Origin: Natrinema hispanicum
GTDB lineage: Archaea > Halobacteriota > Halobacteria > Halobacteriales > Natrialbaceae
DNA length: 64,000 nucleotides
Reading direction: 5' to 3'
Assembly: GCF_900111485.1 (NCBI RefSeq)
Contig: NZ_FOIC01000003.1
Location: 62,001 to 126,000, forward strand
Shown: piece after piece, positions 7,990 through 26,231 of the stretch
Numbering within the stretch: position 1 is the stretch's first letter
Layout of the letters: each line of letters starts with the position of its first letter
Translations under genes and position numbers: made by a program
The notes under the pieces: generated by a model
Databases searched by the model: none
What the model was told of the DNA's origin: nothing
What the model saw: only the letters and a program-made list of their open reading frames with translations

Positions 7990-8072
7990 GAGACCGGCTG
8001 CTGTCCCGCTGTCCCGGCCCGACCGCAGTGCGGGGCGCGGCCAGCCGGCACTGACTGACAGGAGTCCGTCTA
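7990..8072. repeat. Dispersed palindromic intergenic element, copy 1
   Basis: An ~83-bp element whose ends are inverted: left GAGACCGGCTGCTGTC, right the complement of AGACGGACTCCTGTCAGT. The right arm ends CACTGACTGACAGGAGTCCG. The middle contains a conserved GACCGCAGT. The same arrangement occurs at 37317, 45494 and 61619. It lies between two divergently transcribed genes. Confidence 0.75.
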
Positions 8073-8217
8073 ACTCACGTCACACGAGTCGAATCACGAC
8101 ACGCCTTGCGCCCCACCGTGACCAGCGGTGCGGGATACCAAGCGTCGGTCGTCTTGGCCGCCACTGGTACTTTCCGTCTGCGGCCCCTTGTGACTAACTC
8201 ACAATGAGCCGATTTCG

Positions 8218-8406
8218 ATGACCCCCTCTGACGAACGCAAAGAGAAAGCGCCCGGCGTCTGCAGCACCTGTGGCGAGTTGCTGACGGTCTGGATTACTCC
8301 AGACGGAACGATCCACCCCATCAGCCCGCACAATACCTGTTCGTGTGATGATCCATCACTTCGAATCGTCGAGGCAGACGACGTCTTCGAGGAGGACGTT
8401 CGCTGA
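8218..8406 (+). CDS. Small Cys-rich (zinc-binding-like) protein
   Basis: A 62-residue protein with CSTCGELL near residue 15 and HNTCSCDD near residue 38, an arrangement (CxxC...HxxCxC) that could bind one zinc ion. Composition is acidic, as expected for a haloarchaeal protein. It stands alone between divergent neighbours. I do not recognise a named family; coding is supported by composition and the paired cysteine motifs. Confidence 0.55.
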   Translation: MTPSDERKEKAPGVCSTCGELLTVWITPDGTIHPISPHNTCSCDDPSLRIVEADDVFEEDVR

Positions 8407-8685
8407 GAGCGGTCACTCGAGGACGGAAGGCCGTGCTCGTCTGCGCTCTGTCACCGTGACGTGCAAACGGGCGTCCCAGCGAAAGTTTGTATTCCACTGT
8501 TTGACACTCCCCCTCCGAGGCCAGTCACCGACGTCCTCGAGCTGGACCTGCAGACACAGCACTAAAGCACGAGGCACATCCTGTCGGACAGCACGACGTG
8601 AAGATCAGTCACTCTGCTGGGGCCGTCACCAGTGGAGACGGCCGCGAATTCCGACCGCCTTCGGCTTGACTGCTGGCCGACAGTA

Positions 8686-9153
8686 TCAGGAGTGACGCAC
8701 CGTCTCCGCACCACATTCCTCACAGATGGCAACGAGAGCGTCGCGGTCAGCGGTCGGTTCGATACGGACCAACTGCCGCTCGCCACAGTCAGGACACAGC
8801 CGGCGAATGTCTGTCTCGCCGGTCTCGGCAGGTGCACCGAGTGCGAGCGCCACGACCCGTTCGTCAGTCTCGTTGCGGCCGAGTTGCCATTCGCCGGGCG
8901 CAAAGCGGATCGCTTCCTCCGCGCTGACGGTCACATCACCCTCCTCCGTCTCGAACGTCGCCGTCCCCTCGAGGACGTAGAAGAGTTCTTCCTGGTCAGC
9001 GTGGCGATGATAGCCGAATCCGAAGCTCTCGCCGGGCTCGAGGATGTAGTGATTTACTGCGAGGTGTTCGGCTCCGAGTGCGTTCGAAAGTGAGCGCTTG
9101 CTCTGTGCTGGACTCATCCACCGGTCGACCTCGTTGAGACTAACCCGCTCCAT
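8686..9153 (-). CDS. Cupin with C-terminal zinc ribbon
   Basis: A 155-residue protein. Residues about 30-105 are a single cupin barrel with the metal-site motif GYHRHADQEELFYVLEG and the second motif EAIRFAPGEWQ. Residues about 118-153 form a zinc ribbon with CPDCGE and CEECGAE. The start MERVSLNEVDRW is the only in-frame ATG giving a full cupin. Small cupins often bind metals or act as sensors; the added ribbon suggests nucleic-acid or protein contact, which is inference. No operon partner is seen. Confidence 0.85.
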   Translation of the reverse strand: MERVSLNEVDRWMSPAQSKRSLSNALGAEHLAVNHYILEPGESFGFGYHRHADQEELFYVLEGTATFETEEGDVTVSAEEAIRFAPGEWQLGRNETDERVVALALGAPAETGETDIRRLCPDCGERQLVRIEPTADRDALVAICEECGAETVRHS

Positions 9154-9422
9154 AGGACGCAGTCACACGATGAGGGTAAAGAGACTAGTGGCCAGAAATC
9201 AATGATGGGAGACACCTTTCCCTCGAAGATTGGATTCGCAGACAGCAAATCTATATAGAACACACATGATGTCACTTACACTGGATCTGAAATCAACATC
9301 TGTCTGACTGCTGTCGCTATTTTTTAAAGCCGCCTGTCCGACCCTGTTCTCCTTCTCAGACACAGCACGTGCGGTAAGTCGATGTGGGTTGCCAGCACCT
9401 AGAGTGTGATCTGTTTATTACC
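9154..9422. other. AT-rich intergenic region at the left edge of the accessory island
   Basis: This stretch between the cupin gene and the lipoprotein gene is clearly AT-richer than the flanking core genes (for example CTATATAGAAC near 9251 and ATTTTTTAAAG near 9321). No open frame with coding character was found on either strand. Confidence 0.5.
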
Positions 9423-9430
9423 AATATTTA
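9423..9430 (+). promoter_or_regulatory. TATA box of the lipoprotein gene
   Basis: AATATTTA lies 27-34 nt before the ATG at 9457, the spacing of a leaderless haloarchaeal promoter. This supports the ATG at 9457 rather than an upstream GTG. Confidence 0.55.
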
Positions 9431-9456
9431 ACCAGTAAACAGTGGAAGTTGCTTCT

Positions 9457-10026
9457 ATGATTCGGCGAAACTATCTCGCTGCCAGTGGGTTACTGACAGT
9501 CGGCATTGCGGGGTGTACGAGGGTGAGAGGGGAGACACAACTCACGGCTGACGATGTAGTTGCTGACGATTCGAGCGCCACGCTGCCATTTGAGACCGAT
9601 GGCGAAGACGTACTGAGTATTCAGCTCCAGAAACAGTTCCTCGACGGCGAGAAGCGCGAATACTATCCATTCTACGTTTCTTCGTGGCAACGAGACGGAG
9701 TCCGGTTAGACTCGCTCCGACTCGAATTTCGCTCTCCGCCGTACACGAGTGGCTTCTCACCGGCCGGGATCTCCCTTCAAGCAGACGCCCACGCACACAA
9801 AGCGACGCTCTCTCGAGATGAAGACGATCCATCGACAACCATCTTAAACGTCCTCGAGACGACCGACATCGGCCATGGGAGCGTGGTCGTTCAGTTGCTC
9901 CTGTCTGCAGATCACACACAAGACCCACAAAAACTCTGGATCGGGGCCGAAGCCACACTCTCATCCGACAGTCTTCTTGGAGCCGACTACCGTGCGACTG
10001 GTGACGTTACTGTCGAATTTCCCTGA
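9457..10026 (+). CDS. Putative exported lipoprotein, function unknown
   Basis: A 189-residue protein beginning MIRRNYLAASGLLTVGIAGC: an Arg-Arg pair, a hydrophobic core and a lipobox-like GIAGC, typical of haloarchaeal Tat lipoproteins anchored through the Cys. The mature domain is beta-rich without recognisable catalytic motifs. Codon use is less GC-biased than in the core genes, in line with its position at the start of an accessory island. I do not recognise the family. Confidence 0.7.
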   Translation: MIRRNYLAASGLLTVGIAGCTRVRGETQLTADDVVADDSSATLPFETDGEDVLSIQLQKQFLDGEKREYYPFYVSSWQRDGVRLDSLRLEFRSPPYTSGFSPAGISLQADAHAHKATLSRDEDDPSTTILNVLETTDIGHGSVVVQLLLSADHTQDPQKLWIGAEATLSSDSLLGADYRATGDVTVEFP

Positions 10027-10066
10027 CAGGCGACAGATTATTCATCCGCGTCTACCGTCGCTCTTA

Positions 10067-10096
10067 GACACCGCGTTCGCGGTAACTACGGATGCG
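10067..10096. repeat. Accessory-island repeat, copy A (contains a 14-bp palindrome)
   Basis: The 30 bp from GACACCGCGTTCGCGGTAAC onward match 11985-12014 at 25 of 30 positions. At 10070-10083 it contains the perfect palindrome ACCGCGTTCGCGGT. It lies just upstream of the DUF7344 regulator gene. Confidence 0.5.
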
Positions 10097-10131
10097 AACC
10101 CACGGCTCATTTTGGCCCAACCATTTACTGT

Positions 10132-10476
10132 ATGGATATTGGCTGCAAATCTGTGAACCAGTCAACTGATTGGGAGACCATGATGACTGTCCTCGCCGAC
10201 CGGAGCCGTCGTCGTTTATTAATGAACCTAATCGAACACAATCCACAAGAAGAGAGGGTGAATATCCCAGAGGGCGTTCAGATTGGTGAAGAGGAATTAG
10301 AAGTCTTACAAACAGAGTTTGTCCATAACCATCTTCCAAAATTGGAGGAAGAGGGGTATATTAGGTGGAAAAGAGACTCGCACGAAGTAGTCAAAGGTCC
10401 CAAATTTGACGAGATTCGGCCCTTACTTGAATTAATCTCTAACCACCGGAATGAACTTCCAGACGGGTGGATTTGA
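10132..10476 (+). CDS. DUF7344-type winged-helix regulator
   Basis: A 114-residue protein with the LADRSRRRLLMNLIE helix and the HNHLPKLEEEGYIRW recognition helix/wing typical of ArsR-like winged-helix proteins. It matches the haloarchaeal family I know as DUF7344. A second possible start is the ATG at 10180, which would keep the whole HTH. It is probably a local transcriptional regulator in the accessory island; targets are unknown. Codon use is AT-richer than core genes. Confidence 0.75.
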   Translation: MDIGCKSVNQSTDWETMMTVLADRSRRRLLMNLIEHNPQEERVNIPEGVQIGEEELEVLQTEFVHNHLPKLEEEGYIRWKRDSHEVVKGPKFDEIRPLLELISNHRNELPDGWI

Positions 10477-10643
10477 CCGTGATTAGATCTAGCCAATAAC
10501 ACCCACTCTTATTTTCAACCGATAATATCCAATCCGATACGCTTGCTCTTCTGGTGCGAACCTACGATGAGTACACCTGTATACTAACGTCCCGTATTCA
10601 TATAAAATAGTATACCTTACGCAACTTCTGTTGAAATATGACC

Positions 10644-10651
10644 TTTGTAAC
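10644..10651. repeat. Target-site duplication, left copy
   Basis: TTTGTAAC directly abuts the left end of the IS5-type element and is repeated exactly at 11592-11599 on the other side. Eight bp is the duplication length known for the ISH1 subgroup of IS5. Confidence 0.9.
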
Positions 10652-11591
10652 GGCTCTGTTGAATCGCTGTAAGGCGGTGGGTTTCACTGTTTGATGGCAC
10701 GCTTGATGTTGTAGACGACACACATCAGGGTGGCTTCACGGAACTCTCGATACCAGGTACGCGCTCGCACGGCGTAGCCGAGCGAGCGCTTGACGGCTGA
10801 GTTGACGGTTTCGGTCATTGACCGCTGAGCATACCGATCTTCATCAATACGAGCGTTGTGCGCGTGATCGTACGGCGCGAAGATCCGGTGTTTGATCAGC
10901 GGTCGAATGTCGAGTTCACGGAGTCGTTCTCGGAGTTGTTGCTTGTCATAGCCTTTGTCAGCAGCAAGCGACCGCAGATCGCCCGCATTCCGGCGGGCGA
11001 TCTGCTCACAAAGATCCGCGTCACTGCCTTCTAATGTCGTCGAACAGTGAAGGTCGAGTACAGCCTGCGTTGCTGTATCGACGAGCTTTGTGACTTTGAG
11101 CGTCTGGACGCGATAATTCGTTCGCTGGCAGTAGTGGCGGCTCGCACGATCTCGTTCGTAGAATGTTGCGTCGATAGCAGCGTGTTCGGATGGATCGTGT
11201 AGCTGCGCCGACTGGCGCAGCAACACTCGACAGACGCTCATGCTGATCCGATCGAACGCCTTACACAACGTGGATGGCGAGGGGAGATCGGCCGCGCTGA
11301 GGCCGATCTCCCCGGTTATTTGTGGCATCTCCTTGAGCAGGTCAATCGTCATTCGGTAGGACGCATCGAGGTAAATCCGCAGACAGTGCAGGGAAACAAG
11401 GGCATAGTCGGCGAATCCGCCGCCACCTTCCGGGGCGGCGGATTCGTCTCCATCGCCAGTAACGTTTTGAGCAATCGGCACAACTGCCTCAATGAAGCGG
11501 GAGATTTGGGTCATGGACAACTCGACTCTTCCGCTTCAACTCCTTTGATTTAGCGACCTATCCCGACGCCGTCTAGTGATTCAACACAGCC
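10652..11591 (-). mobile_element. IS5-family (ISH1-type) insertion sequence, complete
   Basis: A 940-bp element. Left end GGCTCTGTTGAATCGCT (10652-10668) and the complement of the right end, GGCTGTGTTGAATCACT (11591 down to 11575), form 17-bp terminal inverted repeats with two mismatches. It is flanked by an exact 8-bp duplication TTTGTAAC and carries one intact transposase gene. Nothing suggests decay, so it is probably a recent insertion into the island. Confidence 0.95.
10684..11514 (-). CDS. IS5-family DDE transposase
   Basis: A 276-residue transposase filling the element. The catalytic triad is visible: Asp in AIDATFYERD, Asp in LAADKGYDKQQL, and Glu in the signature Y-(2)-R-(3)-E-(6)-K, seen as YAQRSMTETVNSAVK. 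A TTG at 11520 could be an alternative start. The frame is intact, so it is likely active. Neither programmed frameshifting nor a second frame is needed. Confidence 0.95.
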   Translation of the reverse strand: MTQISRFIEAVVPIAQNVTGDGDESAAPEGGGGFADYALVSLHCLRIYLDASYRMTIDLLKEMPQITGEIGLSAADLPSPSTLCKAFDRISMSVCRVLLRQSAQLHDPSEHAAIDATFYERDRASRHYCQRTNYRVQTLKVTKLVDTATQAVLDLHCSTTLEGSDADLCEQIARRNAGDLRSLAADKGYDKQQLRERLRELDIRPLIKHRIFAPYDHAHNARIDEDRYAQRSMTETVNSAVKRSLGYAVRARTWYREFREATLMCVVYNIKRAIKQ

Positions 11592-11599
11592 TTTGTAAC
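11592..11599. repeat. Target-site duplication, right copy
   Basis: TTTGTAAC follows the right terminal inverted repeat and is identical to 10644-10651. Confidence 0.9.
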
Positions 11600-11660
11600 A
11601 CAGTGTGTGAATGAGCACTGCGTTTATCATGCGAGTCGTTGCTTCTGCTACTGTGAGAAT

Positions 11661-11903
11661 ATGGCGTTGCCCATAATTGGCCGGATCATAGATTTCTTTA
11701 CTAAGTCAGAGTCATCGGTGGAGAGTCAAAAGCCGAATTCTGACAAGAGTTCCTCTACTGACCTCTATACGTGCTCAGACTGTAAGATCACATACATTAA
11801 GAATGACATGGTCGTGTGTCCGAAATGCGGTGAAACCGTTGAACAGACCCCATCATTCGCTGATTTAGGTATCGATCCCAAGAGAAAACCGAAATCTCAG
11901 TAA
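11661..11903 (+). CDS. Small zinc-ribbon protein with amphipathic N-terminus
   Basis: An 80-residue protein. It begins MALPIIGRIIDFFTKSE, a likely amphipathic membrane-associating helix, followed by a Ser-rich linker and a C-terminal zinc ribbon with CSDCK and CPKCGE. The ATG at 11661 is chosen because the Cys-rich codons upstream do not fit the domain. It lies 70 bp right of the IS element, whose insertion may have separated it from its original upstream DNA. Function is unknown. Confidence 0.6.
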   Translation: MALPIIGRIIDFFTKSESSVESQKPNSDKSSSTDLYTCSDCKITYIKNDMVVCPKCGETVEQTPSFADLGIDPKRKPKSQ

Positions 11904-11932
11904 AGAAGTAACCGCCACGGCAGCTACTTGCT

Positions 11933-12014
11933 CTGTACTTACTGCTAACCCGAGATCGCCAGTCCGATCCTCTCCGATTTCTCGGACACCGCGCTCGTGG
12001 TAACGACAGCTGCG
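11933..12014. repeat. Accessory-island repeat, copy B
   Basis: The first 55 bp (CTGTACTTACTGCTAAC...) match 12497-12551 at about 41 of 55 positions. The last 30 bp match 10067-10096 at 25 of 30. It lies downstream of the zinc-ribbon gene and upstream of the small membrane protein gene, with no open frame of coding quality. Confidence 0.55.
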
Positions 12015-12056
12015 TACTATCCGAACAGGATATGAAATGTTGAATTTCATAAGGGA

Positions 12057-12065
12057 TTTAATATT
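12057..12065 (+). promoter_or_regulatory. TATA box of the small membrane protein gene
   Basis: TTTAATATT lies about 20-27 nt before the ATG at 12084, fitting a leaderless transcript. Confidence 0.5.
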
Positions 12066-12083
12066 GAGTGACAACAACGGAAT

Positions 12084-12305
12084 ATGGGTGTTGCCACCCT
12101 CCAAGAAAAGACTCCACGGGCGACTGTCCCCATAATTATCGTGCTTTTTGTTAGCAGCCTCTTGTACGCCGTACTCACATCGACAGCGCTGTTTGCATTG
12201 CTCGTCTTTTGGGGTGGGCTATTCTCGATCGGAATCGGGCTCGTTGCTGTCTCTCTGCTTTACCGGCTTGTACTGGCAGTCGAACGTATCGCGGACAGTC
12301 AATAA
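12084..12305 (+). CDS. Small two-span membrane protein
   Basis: A 73-residue protein with two hydrophobic segments, about residues 14-34 (VPIIIVLFVSSLLYAVL) and 37-64 (LFALLVFWGGLFSIGIGLVA), and a short charged C-terminus. No family is recognised. A promoter at the right distance and the clean membrane topology support it as a real gene. Confidence 0.55.
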   Translation: MGVATLQEKTPRATVPIIIVLFVSSLLYAVLTSTALFALLVFWGGLFSIGIGLVAVSLLYRLVLAVERIADSQ

Positions 12306-12682
12306 AATACCTAAAAACGCTCCTTCAACCGATACTTCGGATCAAAATGAACTTATCCCTGTCTTAATCGAAGACCCAAGAAAAGCTGATAAGTGTGTGT
12401 TTTCCCATGAAATGCAACAGGTGGTGAGCTACATACAAAGTTGGTCCTTGCTCTCGAGGATTCTTACGTCCATCCAGGAGACGCTCAATAACTCGCTTGT
12501 ACTTATTGCTAACTCGAAATTATCTGTCCGATCCTATGCGAGTTCTTGAATATCTATCTCCGATCCGTGAGTAGCTCTCGAACATAGACATTCACCGTGA
12601 ATACCAACTGAGGACTGTCAGACTTACCAACATTGCCAAAGAAGGCGAACAGACGATGCCAATTGCAGTCGATAGATAGACC
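12306..12682. other. Intergenic region without a convincing gene
   Basis: A stretch of 377 bp between the small membrane protein and the HTH-10 gene. It contains a degenerate repeat copy at 12497-12551. A frame open to 12549 runs through it but begins inside the preceding membrane protein gene and lacks haloarchaeal codon bias. Confidence 0.5.
12497..12551. repeat. Accessory-island repeat, copy C
   Basis: A 55-bp segment (TTGTACTTATTGCTAACTC...) related to 11933-11987, including a shared GTCCGATCCT. See the corresponding finding. Confidence 0.5.
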
Positions 12683-13339
12683 ATGTTACTCGCGACGTTT
12701 CAGCTGGAAACAAGCGCCATTTCTCTCGAGGAGACCTTCGAACGGTTACCAAACCTTGAAATTGAGGCCGAGCAGATCGCTGCTCACAGCACCAAATGGA
12801 CGATGCCCTGTCTCTGGATGACCAATGTCGAGCAGTCACGCATCAATAATGCACTGATGAAGGATCCGTCAGTCGATTCCATCGTTGAGGATAAGGGATT
12901 CGAAGACGAGTGCTTTTATCAGGTTCAGTGGAGCGACAATGTGGAAGACCGAATTGATGCCTATCTTGGGACAGGAGGAACGATTCTTCACGCAGAAGCT
13001 ACCGCTGATGGATGGCGAGTGCGGATTCGGTTTGGGACTCGCGATCAGTTCGACGTATTTCGCGAGAGAATGGCTGATCGAGGGTGTGAATACACACTGA
13101 TAGGATTGAGCCAACCAAATGAGCCTCGTCATATGGGCGGACAGTTGACTGCAGCCCAGCGCGAGGCCCTCAGCGCAGCCAAAGAACATGGCTACTACGA
13201 GGTTCCGCGCAAGGTCTCGACTCGAGACCTCGCAGACGAACTTGATATGTCCCATCAAAACCTCTCAGAGTTGCTTCGACGAGCGACCAGTAAACTCATC
13301 GACGAAACACTCACTATATCAGCCGGTAGGAAGGAGTAG
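12683..13339 (+). CDS. HTH-10 family (Bat-like) transcriptional regulator
   Basis: A 218-residue protein. Residues about 1-150 are the Bat-type N-terminal sensor-like region without PAS/GAF motifs. Residues about 155-210 form the HTH-10 domain: LTAAQREALSAAKEHGYYEVP, then STRDLADELDMSHQNLSELLRRAT as helix-turn-helix. This family controls many haloarchaeal genes, including bacterioopsin. It lies in the accessory island with HalOD1 and DUF7344 proteins, so it may regulate local genes; that is inference. Confidence 0.88.
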   Translation: MLLATFQLETSAISLEETFERLPNLEIEAEQIAAHSTKWTMPCLWMTNVEQSRINNALMKDPSVDSIVEDKGFEDECFYQVQWSDNVEDRIDAYLGTGGTILHAEATADGWRVRIRFGTRDQFDVFRERMADRGCEYTLIGLSQPNEPRHMGGQLTAAQREALSAAKEHGYYEVPRKVSTRDLADELDMSHQNLSELLRRATSKLIDETLTISAGRKE

Positions 13340-13421
13340 ACATCCAACTCACCGATCCCTATTTAAAAAGGTGCCAGGGAAAGCCCTACCCTCATCATCC
13401 TAACCTGTCTATAAAACAGTA

Positions 13422-13682
13422 ATGAACACGGATGCTGACCAAATCACGATTGACGCCACGTCAAGCCCCAGCGAATCGATTGTTATGGAAATCGCCAAGC
13501 GAGATAATACAAGTCCATTTGAGATGCAGCCGCTGTATGAGGTGATTGATCCAGAGGCGCTTGATACACTCTTCAAAAGAGGAATGAAAGGAGATGTGAT
13601 GTTTGAATACGCTGGATATGAGGTAACTGTCACCGGGAGTACCTCTAATGAGATACTACTGTCTGGAGCAGATGGCGAATGA
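13422..13682 (+). CDS. HalOD1 output-domain protein
   Basis: An 86-residue protein matching the HalOD1 family: SIVMEIAKRDNTSPFEMQPL near residue 19, then YEVIDPEALDTLF and a C-terminal FEYAGYEVTVTG. HalOD1 is predicted to be an output module in haloarchaeal signalling, often encoded as a stand-alone protein. The position beside an HTH-10 regulator fits a local regulatory set. Confidence 0.85.
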   Translation: MNTDADQITIDATSSPSESIVMEIAKRDNTSPFEMQPLYEVIDPEALDTLFKRGMKGDVMFEYAGYEVTVTGSTSNEILLSGADGE

Positions 13683-13903
13683 GTGAGACAAGCGGAGCAC
13701 AGCTACGCTGTGAGGTTTGTGGGTGGAAAATATCGATTGACGAGGATACCGACTCAACAGACGCAAGTTGTTTGGCTATCGACCATTTTCTGAAAACAGA
13801 TCATACACCCATTAGAAAACAGAATTTGACTGTAGTATAGGGCCCAATTCGTGACTACAACGCTCAGTTTGTTCCGGTTTCTCACGTCTCAGCTTCCCGA
13901 AAG
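13683..13903. other. Convergent intergenic gap with a short hairpin
   Basis: A gap of 221 bp between the convergent HalOD1 and AbrB-like genes. At 13698-13712 CACAGC-TAC-GCTGTG is a perfect 6-bp stem with a 3-nt loop, possibly involved in transcription ending. No gene is visible. Confidence 0.4.
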
Positions 13904-14080
13904 TCATTTGGGTTGATTACGGACACCCCCCCACGTCCCCGTATCCATCCGTGTCACCCGCACTGGCTGATCCTTCACGTTGCCCTCGTCGTCGACCAAT
14001 CCAAGCGCCCGAAGCTCGCTTTTCGGGAGCACAACACCGCCCGACGTACGACCAACCTGTGTCAACTGATGGATCAGCAT
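13904..14080 (-). CDS. Small AbrB/SpoVT-like protein
   Basis: A 58-residue protein. It begins MLIHQLTQVGRTSGGVVLPK, continues SELRALGLVDDEGNV and ends in a basic-acidic DQPVRVTRMDTGTW segment. The G-R-x-x-G-x-V-(L/I)-P-K-x-x-(L/R) pattern followed by a short helix is the swapped-hairpin fold of AbrB/MazE-type DNA-binding proteins. A minus-strand TATA-like GGTTAAAC lies at 14109-14116, about 30-36 nt before the ATG, which supports a real transcript. No partner toxin gene is next to it. The family is inferred from the motif only. Confidence 0.55.
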   Translation of the reverse strand: MLIHQLTQVGRTSGGVVLPKSELRALGLVDDEGNVKDQPVRVTRMDTGTWGGVRNQPK

Positions 14081-17789: not shown

Positions 17790-19211
17790 ATGAGTGATCA
17801 ATCGTCGGTCGGTGGGACCAACGTCGAGGGAGAGTCACCACAGATCGAGCCGACGATCGAGACCGACGAGGCGACGATCACCGACGACGCCGAACTCGAG
17901 CGGACGCTCGGGTTGACTGGCGGCCTCGCCATCGGGATCGGGACGATGATCGGCGCGGGAATCTTCGTGTTCCCGGGACTGGCGGCTGGCCGGGCCGGCC
18001 CCGCCGCGGCGGGATCGTTTGCGATCGGCGCGCTGGTTGCCCTACTGGTCGCACTGCCGGCTTCCGAACTCGCGACGGCGATGCCCAAAAGCGGCGGTGG
18101 GTACTACTATATTTCGCGTGGGCTGGGGACGCTGCCCGGTGCCGTTGTCGGGCTGTCGCTGTGGTTTGGTCTGGTGTTCGCGACGGCGTTTTATCTCGTC
18201 GGCTTCGGCTACTACGCCGTCGACACGCTCGCGGAACTCGGTGTCACGGTCGGTGACGGACTCGTTATCCCGCTGGCGCTGCTGTTCGGGGCGGGCTTTA
18301 CGGTGTTGAACATCACCGGAACGGAAAACGCGGCGAAACTTCAGAACGGGATCGTCGCGTTGTTGCTCTCGATACTGGCCGTCTTCCTCGGGTACGGCGG
18401 CCTCGACGCGGTGGGACTCATCGGTGATCCGTCCACGCCCGAACAGTTTGCCCCGTTCGGGGCGATGCCGGTGTTGACGACCGCGGCGCTCGTGTTCACC
18501 TCGTATCTGGGCTTCGCGCAGGTGGCGACCGTCGCCGGCGAGATGCGCGATCCGGGGCGGAACCTGCCGCTGGCGATGGTCGGCTCCGTGCTCATCGTCG
18601 GCGTCCTCTACGTTGCGGCGATCTTCGTCTCGACCAGCGCGTTCGGCAGCGAGCGGCTCGCGACGTTCGGCGAGACGGCGATGGTCGAGGTGGGCCGCCA
18701 CTACTTCGGCTCGATCGGCGCGGTCGCGATCGTCTTCGGCGGCCTGCTCGCGACGATGTCAAGTGCCAACGCGTCGGTACTCAGCACGTCGCGAGCGATC
18801 TACGCGGTCTCGAAAGACGCCCTGTTGCCGCGGCGAGCGAGTCATATCAATCTCCGGTACGGCACCCCACACGTCGCGCTGGGGATGGCCGGCGGGCCGA
18901 TCCTCGCCCTGGTCGCGACCGGGCGCGTGGAACTGCTCGCGGAGGTCGCGTCGTTTCTCCACCTGATCACGTACGGACTGCTCTGCGTGGCGTTGCTCGC
19001 ACTACGGCGCGCCGACCCGGCATGGTACGACCCCGACTTCCGTGTCCCCGGCTATCCCATCGTCCCGGTACTCGGCGCGCTCGCCAGTTTCGCCCTTCTC
19101 GCGTTCATGCAACCAGTGTCACAGCTCGTCGGCATTGCCATTATGCTCGTAACCGCCGGCTGGTACGCCTACTACGGCCGTGACGTGAGGCTCAAGGGGG
19201 CGATCGAATGA
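17790..19211 (+). CDS. APC-family amino-acid permease
   Basis: A 473-residue transporter with about 12 membrane spans after an acidic 45-residue N-terminus. TM1 carries the substrate-site motif GIGTMIGAGIFVFPG, and the TM2 region contains ELATAMPKSGGGYYYI, both typical of the APC superfamily. The substrate is probably an amino acid or polyamine. It overlaps the next gene, a UspA protein, by 4 bp; permease-Usp coupling is common in haloarchaea and suggests regulation of transport. Confidence 0.92.
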   Translation: MSDQSSVGGTNVEGESPQIEPTIETDEATITDDAELERTLGLTGGLAIGIGTMIGAGIFVFPGLAAGRAGPAAAGSFAIGALVALLVALPASELATAMPKSGGGYYYISRGLGTLPGAVVGLSLWFGLVFATAFYLVGFGYYAVDTLAELGVTVGDGLVIPLALLFGAGFTVLNITGTENAAKLQNGIVALLLSILAVFLGYGGLDAVGLIGDPSTPEQFAPFGAMPVLTTAALVFTSYLGFAQVATVAGEMRDPGRNLPLAMVGSVLIVGVLYVAAIFVSTSAFGSERLATFGETAMVEVGRHYFGSIGAVAIVFGGLLATMSSANASVLSTSRAIYAVSKDALLPRRASHINLRYGTPHVALGMAGGPILALVATGRVELLAEVASFLHLITYGLLCVALLALRRADPAWYDPDFRVPGYPIVPVLGALASFALLAFMQPVSQLVGIAIMLVTAGWYAYYGRDVRLKGAIE

Positions 19212-19912
19212 CGCGCGTCCTCGTTCCCCTGGCGATCCTCGAGGGCGAATCGGTCTCGACCGGCCTCCCGACGCTGCTTGCGACGATGGACGTAACCGTG
19301 CTTGGCTATCACGTCCTGCCAGAACAGACGCCGCCGGATCAGGCACGACTGCAGTACGAGGACAGAGCGACTGGGGCGCTTGTCGATCTCGAGGCGGCGT
19401 TCGACGCCGCTGGCGGGAGCGCCGACCACCGCCTCGTGTTCACCCACGATCGCGACCGAACGGTCGAGCGGATCGCCGACGACACGGCCGCCGATGCCTA
19501 CGCCATCACCGGCACGACCGGGCCAGTCGATCGTCTGCTCGTGACGCTGACCGGCGACGTCGCCGTCGACCGGCTCACCAGCTTCGTCACGGAACTGATC
19601 GGCGACCGTGAAATCGGCGTCACACTCCTGCTCGCGACTGACGACGAACCCCGCGGGCGGACTGTCCTCGAGCGGGCTGTCGCCTCCCTCGCCGAGCACG
19701 GCATCGACATCGAACCCGAGCTTGCGGTCGACGAGCCGCCACTCGAGGCGCTGCTTGCGGCCGCAGCCGGCCACGACGCGATCGTCATGGGCGAGCAGGC
19801 ACCGTCGCTACGGTCGTTCCTCCTCGGTGAAGACGCCGAACGGATCGCAGCCGAGTCTGTCGGGCCGGTCCTCGTCGTCCGCGAGCACCGCAACGAGACC
19901 GAAGTCGAGTGA
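19208..19912 (+). CDS. UspA-like universal stress protein coupled to the permease
   Basis: A 234-residue protein related to the one at 22182-22946: VLVPLAILEGESVSTGLP, VLGYHVLPEQTPPDQARLQY and a C-terminal VMGEQAPSLRSFLLGEDAER that replaces the classic G-2x-G nucleotide loop, so ATP binding is doubtful. It is probably a regulatory partner of the permease whose stop codon it overlaps. The family is clear; the mechanism is inferred. Confidence 0.88.
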   Translation: MTRVLVPLAILEGESVSTGLPTLLATMDVTVLGYHVLPEQTPPDQARLQYEDRATGALVDLEAAFDAAGGSADHRLVFTHDRDRTVERIADDTAADAYAITGTTGPVDRLLVTLTGDVAVDRLTSFVTELIGDREIGVTLLLATDDEPRGRTVLERAVASLAEHGIDIEPELAVDEPPLEALLAAAAGHDAIVMGEQAPSLRSFLLGEDAERIAAESVGPVLVVREHRNETEVE

Positions 19913-19939: not shown

Positions 19940-22102
19940 TTAGCTGTCGGTCGGGAGTTCGACGACGAACACAGCGCCACGAGGCTCGTTGTCCTCGACG
20001 TGGACGCTGCCGCCGTAGGTGTCGACGAGCGTCTCGACGAGATAAAGCCCGAGTCCCGTCCCGGCACTCTCCCCGCCTTTCGTTCCTTTGGCGAAGATCT
20101 CGTCTTTCTGCTCGTCTGAGACACCTGGCCCGTTGTCGGCGACGCGAACGACGACAGTTTCGTCGCGCTCGCTCGCGGAGACTGTCACGGTGGGTACCTC
20201 CCGGTCGTTGTGTTGGACGGCGTTAGTCAGCAGGTTCCGAAAGATCGAGTGGAGCATGTCGTCGGCGACGACCGTCGTCTGCGGAATCGTCCCGTCGACG
20301 GTGACTGCGGCGTTTGCATACTCCGAGCGTACCCGCTCGAGTTCGCTCTCGAGGGTGTGTCGAAGGTCGACGCGGGTCCGGTTTTCGTCCGTCGAGAGCA
20401 TCACGTCGGACATGTCGCGTGCCGTCTGGGTCAACTCGACGGCATGATCGGCGCTCTCGTGGATCGTCTCGAGGTAGTCGCGTCCCGCGTCGTCGACGTG
20501 GTCGCGGAGGAAGTCCGCGTAGGCGGTGACGAGTTGGAGGTCGTTGCGGATATCGTGGCGCAGCATTTGGTTCAGCACGTCGAGGTCGTCGCGCTGTTCT
20601 TTCAGCCGCTGTTCGTACTGCTTGCGCTCCGTGATATCCTGGATCACGCCGTCGAAGACGGTCGTGCCGTCGACCTCCCGGGCGATCGCCGTGACGGCAC
20701 CCCAGAGTGGCTCGTCATGAAGCGTCGTCAACTCGAGTTCCGCTTCCGTCACGACGCCTCGCTCGCACAGACGCTCGCTAAAGGCGGCACGTTCGTCGGG
20801 ATCGGCGTACAGCTCACAGACGGGCTGCTCGCGAAGGTGGGCCGTCGAGTCCGCATCGAAGATGTCTGCCATCGCGTCGTTGACGAGGCGAAACCGACCT
20901 TCGGAGCCGGGCGTGTTCTGATAGACGCCAATTGGGAGGTTCTCGACGAGGCGCTCGTAGCGCTCGAGTCGCCGTTCGCGTGCTTTGCGCTCGGTGATGT
21001 CCTGGACGACCTTGTGGACGTGTTCGGAACCCGACTCGTCGACCGTGAGAGAAGCCGTAATCACCACGTCGATCGGGTCACCCGCAACCGGCTCGAGTGT
21101 CACTTCGTGTGTGACGGCGTCGTCGGCGGCGGTCCGAAGTGATTCGACGAGATCCATCCGCGCGTCCGGATTCGCGTAGAAGTCAGCGACACGACGATCC
21201 TGCAGTTGGTCGGGGGAGTCGACGCCCAAAAGCGACGCAAGGGCCGGGTTGGCATACTCGAAGGTCCCATCGGGCGAGGGCTCGGTCCGAAACACGCCGC
21301 TGGGGACGGTCTCTAACAGGTGATCGGCGAGCTCGAGCGCCTGTCTGCTCTGTTTTCGTTCCGTGATGTCCTCCTGGAACCCGATGTAGTGTGTGACCGT
21401 CCCATCGTCGTCGCGAACCGGGGCGATCGTGACGCGATTCCAAAACGGCGTGCCGTCCTTACGATAGTTTTTGAGTTCGACCGTGACCGGTTCGGCGGCT
21501 GCGATCGCCCCACGCATCTCGGCGACCGGCTCGGTTCGTGTCTCCGGCCCCTGTAAGAACCGACAGTTTCGCCCGACGGCCTCGGAAGCCGAATACCCGG
21601 TGAGTTCCTCGAACATCTCGTTGGTATAGATCATCGGGTTGTCCGGCTGGCTGGGATCGCTGATCGTAATCCCGATCGGTGCGGCGTCGATCGCCCGCGA
21701 TTTCAACTCGCGGTCGACCGCATCATCAGACCGGTCAGCCTCGTCTGTGGCCGCCGTGAGCCGGGCGAGGATGTAGCGCTCGCCGTCGATCGAAACCGGT
21801 GACAGCTGGACATCGAACGGAGCCACCGTCTGCTGGCCGGTTCGGAGCACCCACGTCCGAGTGGCGTCGTCGTCTCGCTCGAGCGGCGGCACCGGCTCGT
21901 CCCCCGGTCCCTGAACCCCGTCTATGAGCGCCGTTACGTCGCGGTCGAGGAGGTCCGCGCGCTCATGGCCGACTATCTCACAGGCCCGAGCGTTGCACTC
22001 GCGGATCCGATTCGTTTCTGGATCGACGATCACGAGCGCGTCAGGGGCTTCGTCGAACACCGTCTCGTATGCCGACGCCGACAGACGCATGCCGAGGGCC
22101 AT
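19940..22102 (-). CDS. Multi-PAS histidine kinase with a LOV-type domain
   Basis: A 720-residue cytoplasmic sensor kinase without membrane spans. PAS domains occupy about 10-115, 138-250, 255-372 and 383-493; the kinase core follows with phospho-acceptor His516 in LRHDIRNDL, the N box NLLTNAVQHND, the G1 box DNGPGV and the G2 box GTGLGLYL. The second PAS has the LOV signature GRNCRFLQGPETR with Cys180, then ELKNYRKDGTPFWN (Asn212, Asn222) and GFQEDIT (Gln243), the residues that form a flavin-cysteinyl adduct under blue light. The partner response regulator is not in the window. An internal ATG at 22090 is an alternative start. Confidence 0.93.
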   Translation of the reverse strand: MALGMRLSASAYETVFDEAPDALVIVDPETNRIRECNARACEIVGHERADLLDRDVTALIDGVQGPGDEPVPPLERDDDATRTWVLRTGQQTVAPFDVQLSPVSIDGERYILARLTAATDEADRSDDAVDRELKSRAIDAAPIGITISDPSQPDNPMIYTNEMFEELTGYSASEAVGRNCRFLQGPETRTEPVAEMRGAIAAAEPVTVELKNYRKDGTPFWNRVTIAPVRDDDGTVTHYIGFQEDITERKQSRQALELADHLLETVPSGVFRTEPSPDGTFEYANPALASLLGVDSPDQLQDRRVADFYANPDARMDLVESLRTAADDAVTHEVTLEPVAGDPIDVVITASLTVDESGSEHVHKVVQDITERKARERRLERYERLVENLPIGVYQNTPGSEGRFRLVNDAMADIFDADSTAHLREQPVCELYADPDERAAFSERLCERGVVTEAELELTTLHDEPLWGAVTAIAREVDGTTVFDGVIQDITERKQYEQRLKEQRDDLDVLNQMLRHDIRNDLQLVTAYADFLRDHVDDAGRDYLETIHESADHAVELTQTARDMSDVMLSTDENRTRVDLRHTLESELERVRSEYANAAVTVDGTIPQTTVVADDMLHSIFRNLLTNAVQHNDREVPTVTVSASERDETVVVRVADNGPGVSDEQKDEIFAKGTKGGESAGTGLGLYLVETLVDTYGGSVHVEDNEPRGAVFVVELPTDS

Positions 22103-22181
22103 GGACGCACCCGAGTTAACCGTTGTGCGTCTCGCCCCCGGCCGGGAATCGACCGGCTGCTGGTGGCGCGCCGCTGCTCTG

Positions 22182-22946
22182 TTAGCCGTCCTCGGTGGGT
22201 GCTGTCGCCTCGTCGGCTTCGGGCTCGAGGTACTCGCCGCGAATCACGACCACTGGATCGACCGTCCGCCGCGCCAGCCGTTTCGCTCGATCCCGAAAGA
22301 TCGCCCGACGGATCGACGGCCGACTTTCGCCGGCGACGAGGAGGTCGTGGTCGGCCGACGCCTCGACGATCGCCGCCGTCGGCGAGTCGTCGACGACGAC
22401 TGTGCTGTCGATCCGATCGTCGTCGACGCCTGCAGCGACCAGCTCCGATCGAGCCGTCTCGAGCAGGGCCGTTCCTGCCGCTTTCTGCACGTCGTCGGGC
22501 GCGACGTGAAAGAGCGTCAGCTCGAGGGTCGTGTCGGCGAGGATCGTCGCGAGCAGCCGGGCGATGTGATCGACGTTGACATCGCCCCGGAGTGCGACGA
22601 GTACCGTCTCGAGGATGGGTGCTGGATTGAGTATCAACACGGCGTCGCAGGCGTCCTCGACGGCGACACGCTCGAACGTTTGCAACCGGTCGTGGGTAAA
22701 CACCAGTCGCGAGGTGACGTCACAGCCGGCGTCCTCGAAAACCGTCCGTAGTTCCTCGAGGTCGGCTCGTGCGCGATCGCCGTACTCGTCGCGTGCCTGC
22801 TCCGGGCTGGTCTGGTCCGGGATTTCGCGATAGCCAAGCAAGACAACCGGAATTGACGCGAACGCGTCGACGATCGTTTCCGGAACGGACTCACCCTCGA
22901 GAACGTCGACCGGAATGAGAACGCGGTGATCGCGAGGCGCGGACAT
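22182..22946 (-). CDS. UspA-like universal stress protein
   Basis: A 254-residue protein of the same type as the permease-linked UspA at 19208: VLIPVDVLEGESVPETIV, VLLGYREIPDQTSPEQARDEY and a second half starting LELTLFHVAPDDVQ. The C-terminal nucleotide loop reads VAGESRPSIRRAIFRD, again without the classic G-2x-G. It lies about 80 nt upstream of the LOV kinase on the same strand, so the two may be cotranscribed and functionally linked. Confidence 0.88.
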   Translation of the reverse strand: MSAPRDHRVLIPVDVLEGESVPETIVDAFASIPVVLLGYREIPDQTSPEQARDEYGDRARADLEELRTVFEDAGCDVTSRLVFTHDRLQTFERVAVEDACDAVLILNPAPILETVLVALRGDVNVDHIARLLATILADTTLELTLFHVAPDDVQKAAGTALLETARSELVAAGVDDDRIDSTVVVDDSPTAAIVEASADHDLLVAGESRPSIRRAIFRDRAKRLARRTVDPVVVIRGEYLEPEADEATAPTEDG

Positions 22947-22989: not shown

Positions 22990-23564
22990 CCTGTCGACCG
23001 TCGTCTCTCGAGAAGTGATCGCGATCGTACCAATCGAACCGATTGATACACTGACGCAGAACTGGCGTGCGATCAGGTGTGCACTCAGTTTGTCGGCGTC
23101 AAGCTCGAGGGCGGCGACGTGATCGACGCCAACCCGTTCTCGGAACCGGCATGTGGTGGGGTGACACCATTTTCACTATCACGAGTCCGTTCAAGCGGCT
23201 TAACAACCTAATAAGTATACTGAGCCACCGCGAACGAACGACGTGGCGAGGCGGACCGGATTCGGTCGTTCCCCCCTACCGAACCCGTCCGATCATCCGA
23301 GACATCGCCGAACCCTCGCCACCGATCGGGGCACGTCCCAACGTCTAGTGACACCCTCACGCTCCGATCGCCCATCCACCGCACACGGACCCGGCAGGGG
23401 GTGTTCGGGTCCGTGTCGGTTTCGGCAACTGGTTTCGAAACGCATGTTCGACCCGAAGCTGACTCCCTGCGAACGCCGTTGCGATCGATCCGATCCAGCG
23501 TCACCGCGATCACTTTCACCGCGGATCCCGCAGGGTTTTTGAGATGGAACGATACGCATCCAGT
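22990..23564. other. 575-bp gap upstream of mutS
   Basis: No convincing gene on either strand. A short frame around 23075-23180 has haloarchaeal composition but neither a usable start nor a recognisable family. The rest is mixed sequence with an AT-richer patch near 23200-23225. Confidence 0.45.
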
Positions 23565-26231
23565 ATGACTGAGGCGACGGGGATCGTCGGAGAGTTTTTC
23601 TCCCTCAAAGAGGGGACCGACGCCGATCTACTGGCGATGCAGTGTGGTGACTTCTACGAGTTCTTCGGCGAGGACGCCGAACGTGTTAGCGAGGAACTCG
23701 ATCTCAAGGTCTCCCAGAAGTCCTCCCATGGATCATCGTATCCGATGGCCGGCGTGCCGATCGACGACCTCACGCCCTACCTCAAGGCCCTCGTCGAACG
23801 TGGCTACCGGGTCGCCGTCGCCGACCAGTACGAGACCGACTCCGGCCACGCTCGCGAGATCGTCCGCGTCGTGACGCCTGGGACTTTGCTCGAGACCAGC
23901 GATGCCGATGCCCAGTACCTCGCGGCGGTCGTCGACGGCAACGGTGCCAGTGGCTCGAGCGGGAGCGGAGACGGGTACGGCCTTGCCTTTGCGGACGTGA
24001 CGACCGGCCGGTTTCTCGTCGCCGAGGCCGACGACGCCGACGACGCACTGACGGAACTCTACCGGTTCGATCCGGTCGAGGTCCTGCCGGGGCCGGACGT
24101 GCGAACCGACGACGACCTCCTCGGGCGGGTACGCGAACGCAGCGATGCAACCCTCACACTCCACGAGACGGAGGCGTTCGCGCCCAAGCGTGCAGCCCAT
24201 CAGGTGCGCGAACAGTTCGGCACCGAAACCGTCGACCGACTGGCCGTCGACGAACCAGCCATCGCCGCCGCCGGGGCCGTCCTTGCGTACGTCGCGGACA
24301 CCGGTGCGGGCGTGCTGGCCTCGATGACCCGCATCCAGGCCCACCACGGCGACGATCACGTCACGCTGGATGCGACCACCCAGCGCAACCTCGAGTTGAC
24401 CGAGACGATGCAAGGCGAGCGCGACGGCTCGTTGTTCGCGACGATCGATCACACCGAGACCAGTGCCGGCGGTCGCCTGCTGAAAGAGTGGCTTCAGCGT
24501 CCCCGTCGGTCGCTCACGACCTTAGAGCAACGTCAGGAATCCGTGGCCGCGCTGTCGACGGCGGCGCTGGCTCGCGACGAGCTACAGGATGCGCTCGGCG
24601 AGGCCTACGATCTGGCGCGACTCGCCTCGAAGGCGACCCACGGTAGCGCCGACGCACGGGATCTGCTTGCGGTCCAGGAGACGCTCGCGGTCCTGCCTGC
24701 GCTGGCCGAAATCGTCGCATCGAACCCAGATCTGGCCGACTCCCCGCTCTCCGAGATCGTCGCCCGACCGGATCGTGCGGCCGCTGCCGAGCTTCGAGAG
24801 ACGCTCGAGGAAGCCATCGCCGAGGATCCGCCGTCGACGGTCACGCAAGGCGAACTCCTCCAGCAGGGATACGACGACGACCTCGACGAGGTCATCGAGC
24901 GCCACGACGCCGTCAAAGAGTGGCTCGACACGCTCGCCGACCGCGAGAAAGCCCAGCACGGCCTCTCGCACGTCACTGTCGACCGGAACAAGACCGACGG
25001 CTACTACATCCAGGTCGGCAAGTCCGCCGCCGATGGCGTCCCGGATCACTACGAGCAGATCAAGACGCTGAAAAACTCCAAACGGTTTACAACCGACGAA
25101 CTCGAGGCAAAAGAGCGCGAAATCCTCAGACTCGAGGAACAACGCGGCGAACTCGAGTACGAGCTGTTCTGCGAGCTTCGCGAGTCGGTCGCTTCCCATG
25201 CCGAACTGCTCCAGGATGTCGGCCGGGCGCTGGCGACCGTCGACGCACTCGCAAGTCTGGCAACCCACGCTGCCGAGAACCGCTGGGTCCAGCCCGACCT
25301 CCACCAGGGCGATCGCCTCGAGATCGATCAAGGACGCCACCCAGTCGTCGAGCAGACGACTGAGTTCGTCCCCAACGACGTGCGACTCGACGAGGATCGG
25401 GGCTTTCTGGTCGTCACCGGCCCTAACATGTCGGGCAAGTCGACGTACATGCGCCAGGTCGCGTGTATCGTCTTGCTCGCCCAGATCGGCAGTTTCGTCC
25501 CGGCAAAGGAGGCTGAAATCGGGCTGGTCGACGGCATCTTCACCCGTGTCGGTGCGCTGGACGAACTCGCACAGGGGCGCTCGACGTTCATGGTCGAGAT
25601 GAGCGAACTCTCGAACATTCTCCATACCGCGACCGAGGAGTCGCTGGTCATCCTCGATGAGGTCGGCCGCGGGACCGCGACCTACGACGGAATCTCGATC
25701 GCGTGGGCCGCGACAGAGTACCTGCACAACGAGGTCCAGGCCAAGACCCTCTTTGCGACCCACTACCACGAGCTGACTGGGCTGGCGGAGAACCTCCCGC
25801 GCGTCGCCAACGTCCACGTCGCAGCCGACGAACGCGACGGCGATGTGACGTTCCTCCGAACGGTTCGGGACGGCCCCACGGACCGCAGCTACGGGATCCA
25901 CGTCGCCGACCTCGCAGGGGTGCCCGATCCCGTCGTCGACCGCGCTCGAGACGTCTTAGAGCGTCTGCGCGAGGAGAAAGCCATCGAAGCCAAAGGTGGC
26001 GGCTCGAGCGAACCAGTCCAGGCGGTTTTCGATCTGGGCAGCGGAACCATGCAGACACAGGGGCAGGCTGCATCGACCGACGGCGGGCCGACGGAGGCAG
26101 ACGTTGGAGGGGCGCTCGATCCCGACACCGAGGCCGTTCTCGAAGACCTTGAGTCGATCGACGTGAATACGACACCGCCGATCGAACTCGTCTCGAAGGT
26201 CCAAGAGTTACAAGAGCGACTCGAGGACTGA
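23565..26231 (+). CDS. mutS: DNA mismatch repair protein MutS
   Basis: An 888-residue mismatch-recognition ATPase. Domain I contains the mismatch-contacting F-x-E motif in GDFYEFFGEDA. The middle lever and clamp follow, and the C-terminal ABC ATPase has Walker A GPNMSGKST (near residue 620), the signature region ELAQGRSTFMVEMSEL and Walker B ILDEVGRGTATYDG, then ATHYHELTGL. Length and layout fit MutS1. The start MTEATGIVGEFF is chosen because the seven upstream codons are not conserved. mutL follows 390 bp downstream. Confidence 0.96.
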   Translation: MTEATGIVGEFFSLKEGTDADLLAMQCGDFYEFFGEDAERVSEELDLKVSQKSSHGSSYPMAGVPIDDLTPYLKALVERGYRVAVADQYETDSGHAREIVRVVTPGTLLETSDADAQYLAAVVDGNGASGSSGSGDGYGLAFADVTTGRFLVAEADDADDALTELYRFDPVEVLPGPDVRTDDDLLGRVRERSDATLTLHETEAFAPKRAAHQVREQFGTETVDRLAVDEPAIAAAGAVLAYVADTGAGVLASMTRIQAHHGDDHVTLDATTQRNLELTETMQGERDGSLFATIDHTETSAGGRLLKEWLQRPRRSLTTLEQRQESVAALSTAALARDELQDALGEAYDLARLASKATHGSADARDLLAVQETLAVLPALAEIVASNPDLADSPLSEIVARPDRAAAAELRETLEEAIAEDPPSTVTQGELLQQGYDDDLDEVIERHDAVKEWLDTLADREKAQHGLSHVTVDRNKTDGYYIQVGKSAADGVPDHYEQIKTLKNSKRFTTDELEAKEREILRLEEQRGELEYELFCELRESVASHAELLQDVGRALATVDALASLATHAAENRWVQPDLHQGDRLEIDQGRHPVVEQTTEFVPNDVRLDEDRGFLVVTGPNMSGKSTYMRQVACIVLLAQIGSFVPAKEAEIGLVDGIFTRVGALDELAQGRSTFMVEMSELSNILHTATEESLVILDEVGRGTATYDGISIAWAATEYLHNEVQAKTLFATHYHELTGLAENLPRVANVHVAADERDGDVTFLRTVRDGPTDRSYGIHVADLAGVPDPVVDRARDVLERLREEKAIEAKGGGSSEPVQAVFDLGSGTMQTQGQAASTDGGPTEADVGGALDPDTEAVLEDLESIDVNTTPPIELVSKVQELQERLED

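Follow-up and report, generated by a model that had tools for sequence, protein, structure and literature searches.

A gene for a predicted LOV histidine kinase lies between two convergent genes for Usp-family proteins in the Natrinema hispanicum genome analysed here (G000). It falls within a 64,000-nt stretch of DNA, referred to as the window, in which all gene and feature coordinates of this genome are counted. The kinase ORF occupies 19940..22102 on the reverse strand, starts with ATG, encodes 720 amino acids and has orthologues in two closely related species (84% in G074 and about 80% in G071). On the forward strand, an APC-superfamily amino-acid permease (17790..19211), assigned by family searches and synteny, overlaps by 4 bp with UspA (19208..19912), a Usp-family protein by Pfam and synteny whose gene is convergent with that of the kinase. 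UspB (22182..22946, reverse strand), which shares the orientation of the kinase and precedes it with a gap of 79 bp, is termed Usp-like on a Pfam Usp score of 23.9 bits, just under the 24-bit cut-off. UspA and UspB are 39–40% identical, and neither has another close relative in the genome. The same-strand Usp-like neighbour reported in the earlier note, related to the Usp protein coupled to the permease, is thus borne out.

A two-component sensor histidine kinase is expected to carry a phosphoacceptor histidine together with N, D and G boxes, and all of these are found in the ORF. Pfam resolves four PAS stretches, a HisKA domain at residues 510–566 and a HATPase_c domain at residues 615–719, the latter two both above their cut-offs, giving the architecture PAS-LOV-PAS-PAS-HisKA-HATPase; the three further PAS domains and the HisKA/HATPase core described earlier are therefore confirmed. 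In reverse-strand order from the N terminus, PAS1 (residues about 12–117; 21752..22069) is without a LOV signature and is followed by the LOV domain (about 134–250; 21353..21703), PAS3 (about 262–372; 20987..21319) and PAS4 (about 385–493; 20624..20950). The HisKA dimerisation and phosphoacceptor domain (20405..20575) contains the predicted phosphoacceptor His516 in LRHDIRND, and the HATPase_c catalytic domain (19946..20260) has an N-box at 623–632, DNGPG at 656–660 and GLGLYLV at 683–689. No membrane or receiver domain family was found in a Pfam search of the protein. Confidence in the relative placement of domains is low in the full-length model (pTM 0.34); like other HisKA kinases, the protein is presumably a dimer.

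LOV photoreceptors are distinguished from other PAS domains by a small set of residues around the flavin. The second PAS domain contains GRNCRFLQ at 177–184 (C180, Q184), NYRKDGTPFWN at 212–222 (N212, N222) and GFQEDIT at 241–247 (Q243), and C180, N212, N222 and Q243 each lie where the earlier note had placed them. The codon of Cys180, the predicted adduct-forming residue by motif, homologue alignment and structure mapping, is at 21563..21565 on the reverse strand. An alignment of 42 LOV homologues shows no variation at C180, Q184, N212 or Q243 and retention of N222 in at least 90% of them; the cysteine position in the non-LOV PAS stretches found alongside is occupied by Pro (9/10) or His (1/10). 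When the sequence was compared with PDB chains, the top ranks were taken by the Meiothermus ruber LOV domain 9VF7 (E = 1.7e-35), Chloroflexus 6RHG, and the LOV domains of aureochrome, YtvA and phototropin; the match is far beyond chance. The best NCBIfam score was to the YtvA blue-light receptor model (1.3e-52), and a blue-light-activated histidine kinase model was among the best four (1.2e-45); both hits cover the LOV region only and fall under the full-length cut-offs.

The LOV signature is expected to be accompanied by a LOV fold with an accessible flavin pocket. The AlphaFold model of the domain has a mean pLDDT of 91.5 and includes N- and C-terminal helices. It superimposes on 9VF7_C with an rmsd of 1.0 Å over 134 columns (TM 0.92), and its best 50 structural matches in the PDB are LOV proteins. 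The domain is 50–53% identical to CagLOV and MrLOV, with the equivalents of C85, Q89, N117, N127 and Q148 all kept, and Q184, R181, R197, N212, N222 and Q243 align with identical residues in both. A blocked pocket in a structure prediction had been named earlier as a finding that would speak against a photoreceptor; nothing in the predicted model, viewed without a ligand, suggests such blockage.

Three substitutions relative to CagLOV (6RHG) were noted: Thr146 for Ile52 (a correspondence deduced from M51 = I145 and V53 = I147), Tyr239 for Phe144 and Phe242 for Val147. Judging from their aligned positions, Tyr239, where a Phe usually lies beside the flavin, and Thr146, where Val or Ile is usual, could quench or tune the chromophore. 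The I52T mutant of CagFbFP is unchanged in structure and retains absorbance at roughly 450 nm (PMC8131319), and most archaeal LOV domains surveyed are reported to carry Tyr or Trp in place of the Phe (PMC12202551).

Several known systems resemble this kinase. Database mining in 2014 catalogued 167 archaeal LOV proteins, comprising LOV-HTH proteins and LOV-kinases (PMC4844311), and the archaeal LOV kinases described there likewise combine PAS, GAF or RR modules with a two-component kinase and nothing else. The first archaeal LOV domain to be characterised, in 2025, was ALovD-1 from a Halonotius PAS histidine kinase (full-length relative WP_120100563; PMC12202551). The Halonotius protein is similarly haloarchaeal, has its LOV domain as the second PAS and carries a GXNCRFLQ-type motif and the archaeal hallmarks, but it contains three PAS domains rather than four, and ALovD-1 has Tyr at the site of Phe182. 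The Halonotius LOV domain, studied in isolation from the rest of its kinase, was found to bind FMN, to form a 390-nm adduct and to complete a photocycle at 3 M salt (PMC12202551). The closest solved LOV structures, Meiothermus ruber Mrub_1259 (9VF7) and Chloroflexus aggregans Cagg_3753 (6RHG), share all key residues, although they have Ile/Val, Phe and Val/Ile in place of Thr146, Tyr239 and Phe242 and differ in domain arrangement. The order LOV-PAS-histidine kinase is shared with Brucella LOV-HK (6PPS, 6PH4), which is 36–39% identical over the LOV domain. The N. hispanicum protein is an ordinary haloarchaeal LOV kinase, of a kind already known. Brucella LOV-HK differs from it in that its LOV domain is N-terminal, there is a single PAS domain besides LOV, and the kinase core is of another type.

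Only one other intact LOV signature was found in the genome, that of a Bat-like LOV-BAT-HTH_10 regulator (L002). Its LOV domain is 63% identical to that of the kinase, with all key residues common to both, but its output is DNA-binding, in contrast to the histidine kinase output of the ORF studied here. A Bat-type LOV transcription regulator was ruled out for this ORF, since the BAT/HTH_10 C-terminal output is absent by Pfam.

If the gene is functional, its coding sequence is expected to be constrained. In comparisons of G000, G074 and G071, dN/dS for the whole kinase gene is about 0.2, indicating purifying selection. The kinase core (0.10–0.25) and the LOV domain (0.20–0.26) have low values, the latter showing that the LOV domain is being maintained, and PAS1, the fastest-evolving domain, has the highest (0.41–0.45). 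In G071 the orthologue is shorter by PAS4, the missing part being precisely one unit from QDITERK to QDITERK, a simple repeat-mediated change. Constraint on the LOV domain also bears on whether its main role is flavin redox sensing and not light sensing. Tyr239 could quench the excited state, and flavin photoreduction can allow LOV proteins to signal even when the cysteine is missing (PMC4682037). However, Cys180 and the LOV signature are strictly conserved under purifying selection, which would be needless for a pure redox sensor, and the Halonotius relative photocycles (PMC12202551); we regard redox sensing as an improbable main role. This analysis shows the order of the domains, that the catalytic and flavin residues are intact, a predicted LOV fold and selection against amino-acid change; the gene most likely encodes a real photoreceptor kinase. 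At the level of sequence and fold, the blue-light LOV histidine kinase proposed from the first inspection of the DNA is well supported by the residues, the fold, the closest structures, conservation and a characterised haloarchaeal relative.

Upstream of the kinase, a 23-bp block, CGAGACGCACAACGGTTAACTCG (22112..22134, reverse strand), shows no difference among the three species with an intact kinase gene. It stops 9 bp short of the kinase ATG and is a possible promoter or operator. No second copy was found genome-wide with up to 3 mismatches, and the block therefore gives no regulon lead. A sigma-70 promoter scan, which is not meaningful in archaea, returned no match. Met5 of the kinase is also conserved, so a leaderless start at that codon is possible.

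The gene order around the kinase is largely common to the family: ThiD/N, luciferase-like oxidoreductase, APC permease, UspA and, convergent with UspA, UspB, with mutS farther on. The permease-UspA/UspB block is present in all 19 Natrialbaceae loci compared. The kinase, by contrast, stands between UspA and UspB at only three of them (G000, G074 and G071, which are closely related species), is reduced to a scar at two and has left no trace at 14. In the two species with the scar, G057 and G058, the last ~42 kinase codons remain in a 172–177-bp spacer between two intact Usp genes (L128 6505–6681 and L129 1723–1893). The remnant is 90% identical to the kinase in amino acids, ends at the UspB stop codon and is frayed in G058; UspB of these species is 96–97% identical to that of G000.

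The distribution of the kinase bears directly on the suggestion, also made in the earlier note, that the kinase, UspB, UspA and the permease form one unit in which light regulates transport or stress proteins. UspB and the kinase are indeed co-oriented and closely spaced, in an order kept in three species, and the genome contains no close relative of either Usp protein apart from the other one. However, the block occurs without the kinase at 16 of the 19 syntenic loci, including the two from which the kinase was deleted with both Usp genes left intact, and Usp relatives are found in 94 of 125 family genomes, compared with 3 of 125 for the kinase. The nearest PAS-LOV relatives beyond the clade, 44–56% identical along the first 269 residues, are distributed over several haloarchaeal families, and among the kinase relatives whose flanks were checked, none adjoins a Usp or permease relative. 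A light-linked transport/stress module is thus unlikely. As judged by gene order, the kinase does not travel with the Usp and permease genes, which are independent of it. Because the block stands without the kinase at so many loci, and the kinase relatives checked outside the clade lie elsewhere, the Usp genes are most likely the landing site of the kinase and not its output.

Gain and loss of the kinase were placed on a tree of the permease, UspA, UspB and MutS, in which G000, G074, G071, G057 and G058 form one clade. A single gain in the ancestor of these five species, followed by one deletion, is the simplest history, and G057 and G058 appear to share one deletion junction, even though the two do not come out as sisters in the tree, from which G058 MutS was missing (support against this pairing, 0.58). 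The kinase is an accessory gene that was probably acquired by the clade ancestor between two convergent Usp genes and later deleted in two species, and its loss from two close relatives shows that it is dispensable. That these relatives, very close to G000, retain a mere 3' scar could also mean that the gene is on its way out of this lineage and that the photoreceptor is decaying or inactive. The G000 copy, however, is full length and stop-free with every catalytic residue kept, and its dN/dS relative to its orthologues is low, which makes decay highly unlikely for this gene. No record in the plasmid collection gave 80% query coverage in one place.

Other insertions were seen at this locus. 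ABC-transporter-like genes lie between the two Usp genes in G056, and similar genes lie between UspB and mutS in G064 (L132 5467–8408 and L140 5373–8879); from these differing inserts, the Usp-mutS region seems to accept varied DNA. Near the kinase locus, positions 8001–14000 of the window have a G+C content of 48–58%, compared with about 65%, suggesting that this DNA is foreign or mobile.

Of 125 Natrialbaceae genomes, 10 encode another kind of LOV kinase, GAF-(PAS)-LOV-HK, of about 650 amino acids, directly downstream of mutS and in its orientation (for example, L136 8323–10371, L142 9317–11269 and L145 164–2476; mutS of the window is at 23544–26231). The Usp-flanked kinase is absent from all 10. 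Two LOV kinase groups thus lie some 5 kb or less from mutS, each in its own set of Natrialbaceae, the Usp-flanked one beyond UspB in 3 species. This raises the idea that the Usp-flanked LOV kinase is functionally tied to its neighbourhood, which we consider very improbable; if true, it could reflect light control of the stress or DNA mismatch repair genes there.

Following light absorption, a LOV kinase is expected to relay a signal from the flavin to its phosphoacceptor domain. By analogy with LOV histidine kinases, we infer flavin binding, a photocycle and light-dependent kinase activity for the N. hispanicum protein. Its LOV domain would bind FMN, and blue light near 450 nm would drive formation of a Cys180-S-C4a adduct. 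A flip of Gln243 would then alter the helix after the LOV core (residues 247–265), and this change may be relayed through the serial PAS3 and PAS4 helices to the HisKA coiled coil, where it would alter autophosphorylation of His516 and the passing of the phosphoryl group to a response regulator whose gene lies at another site. Nine receiver-domain matches were found in the genome, none of them on the contig that carries the kinase (C58); the phosphoryl partners of haloarchaeal kinases are commonly unknown. Taken as a whole, the gene of this Natrialbaceae haloarchaeon very probably encodes a soluble histidine kinase that senses blue light, with a LOV-to-HisKA relay and a history of clade-level gain and loss.

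Light sensing in haloarchaea is usually credited to rhodopsins, and LOV kinases are common in this group; no output of a haloarchaeal LOV kinase is described in the literature reviewed. The finding of this kinase confirms known biology, to which the present analysis adds the genomic context, the gene loss and a clean pattern of gain and loss. The locus thereby amounts to a natural experiment, with the kinase in some species, a deletion scar in others that are very close to them, and both flanking genes intact. This contrast among very close species makes the locus a good place to look for the kinase's control targets.
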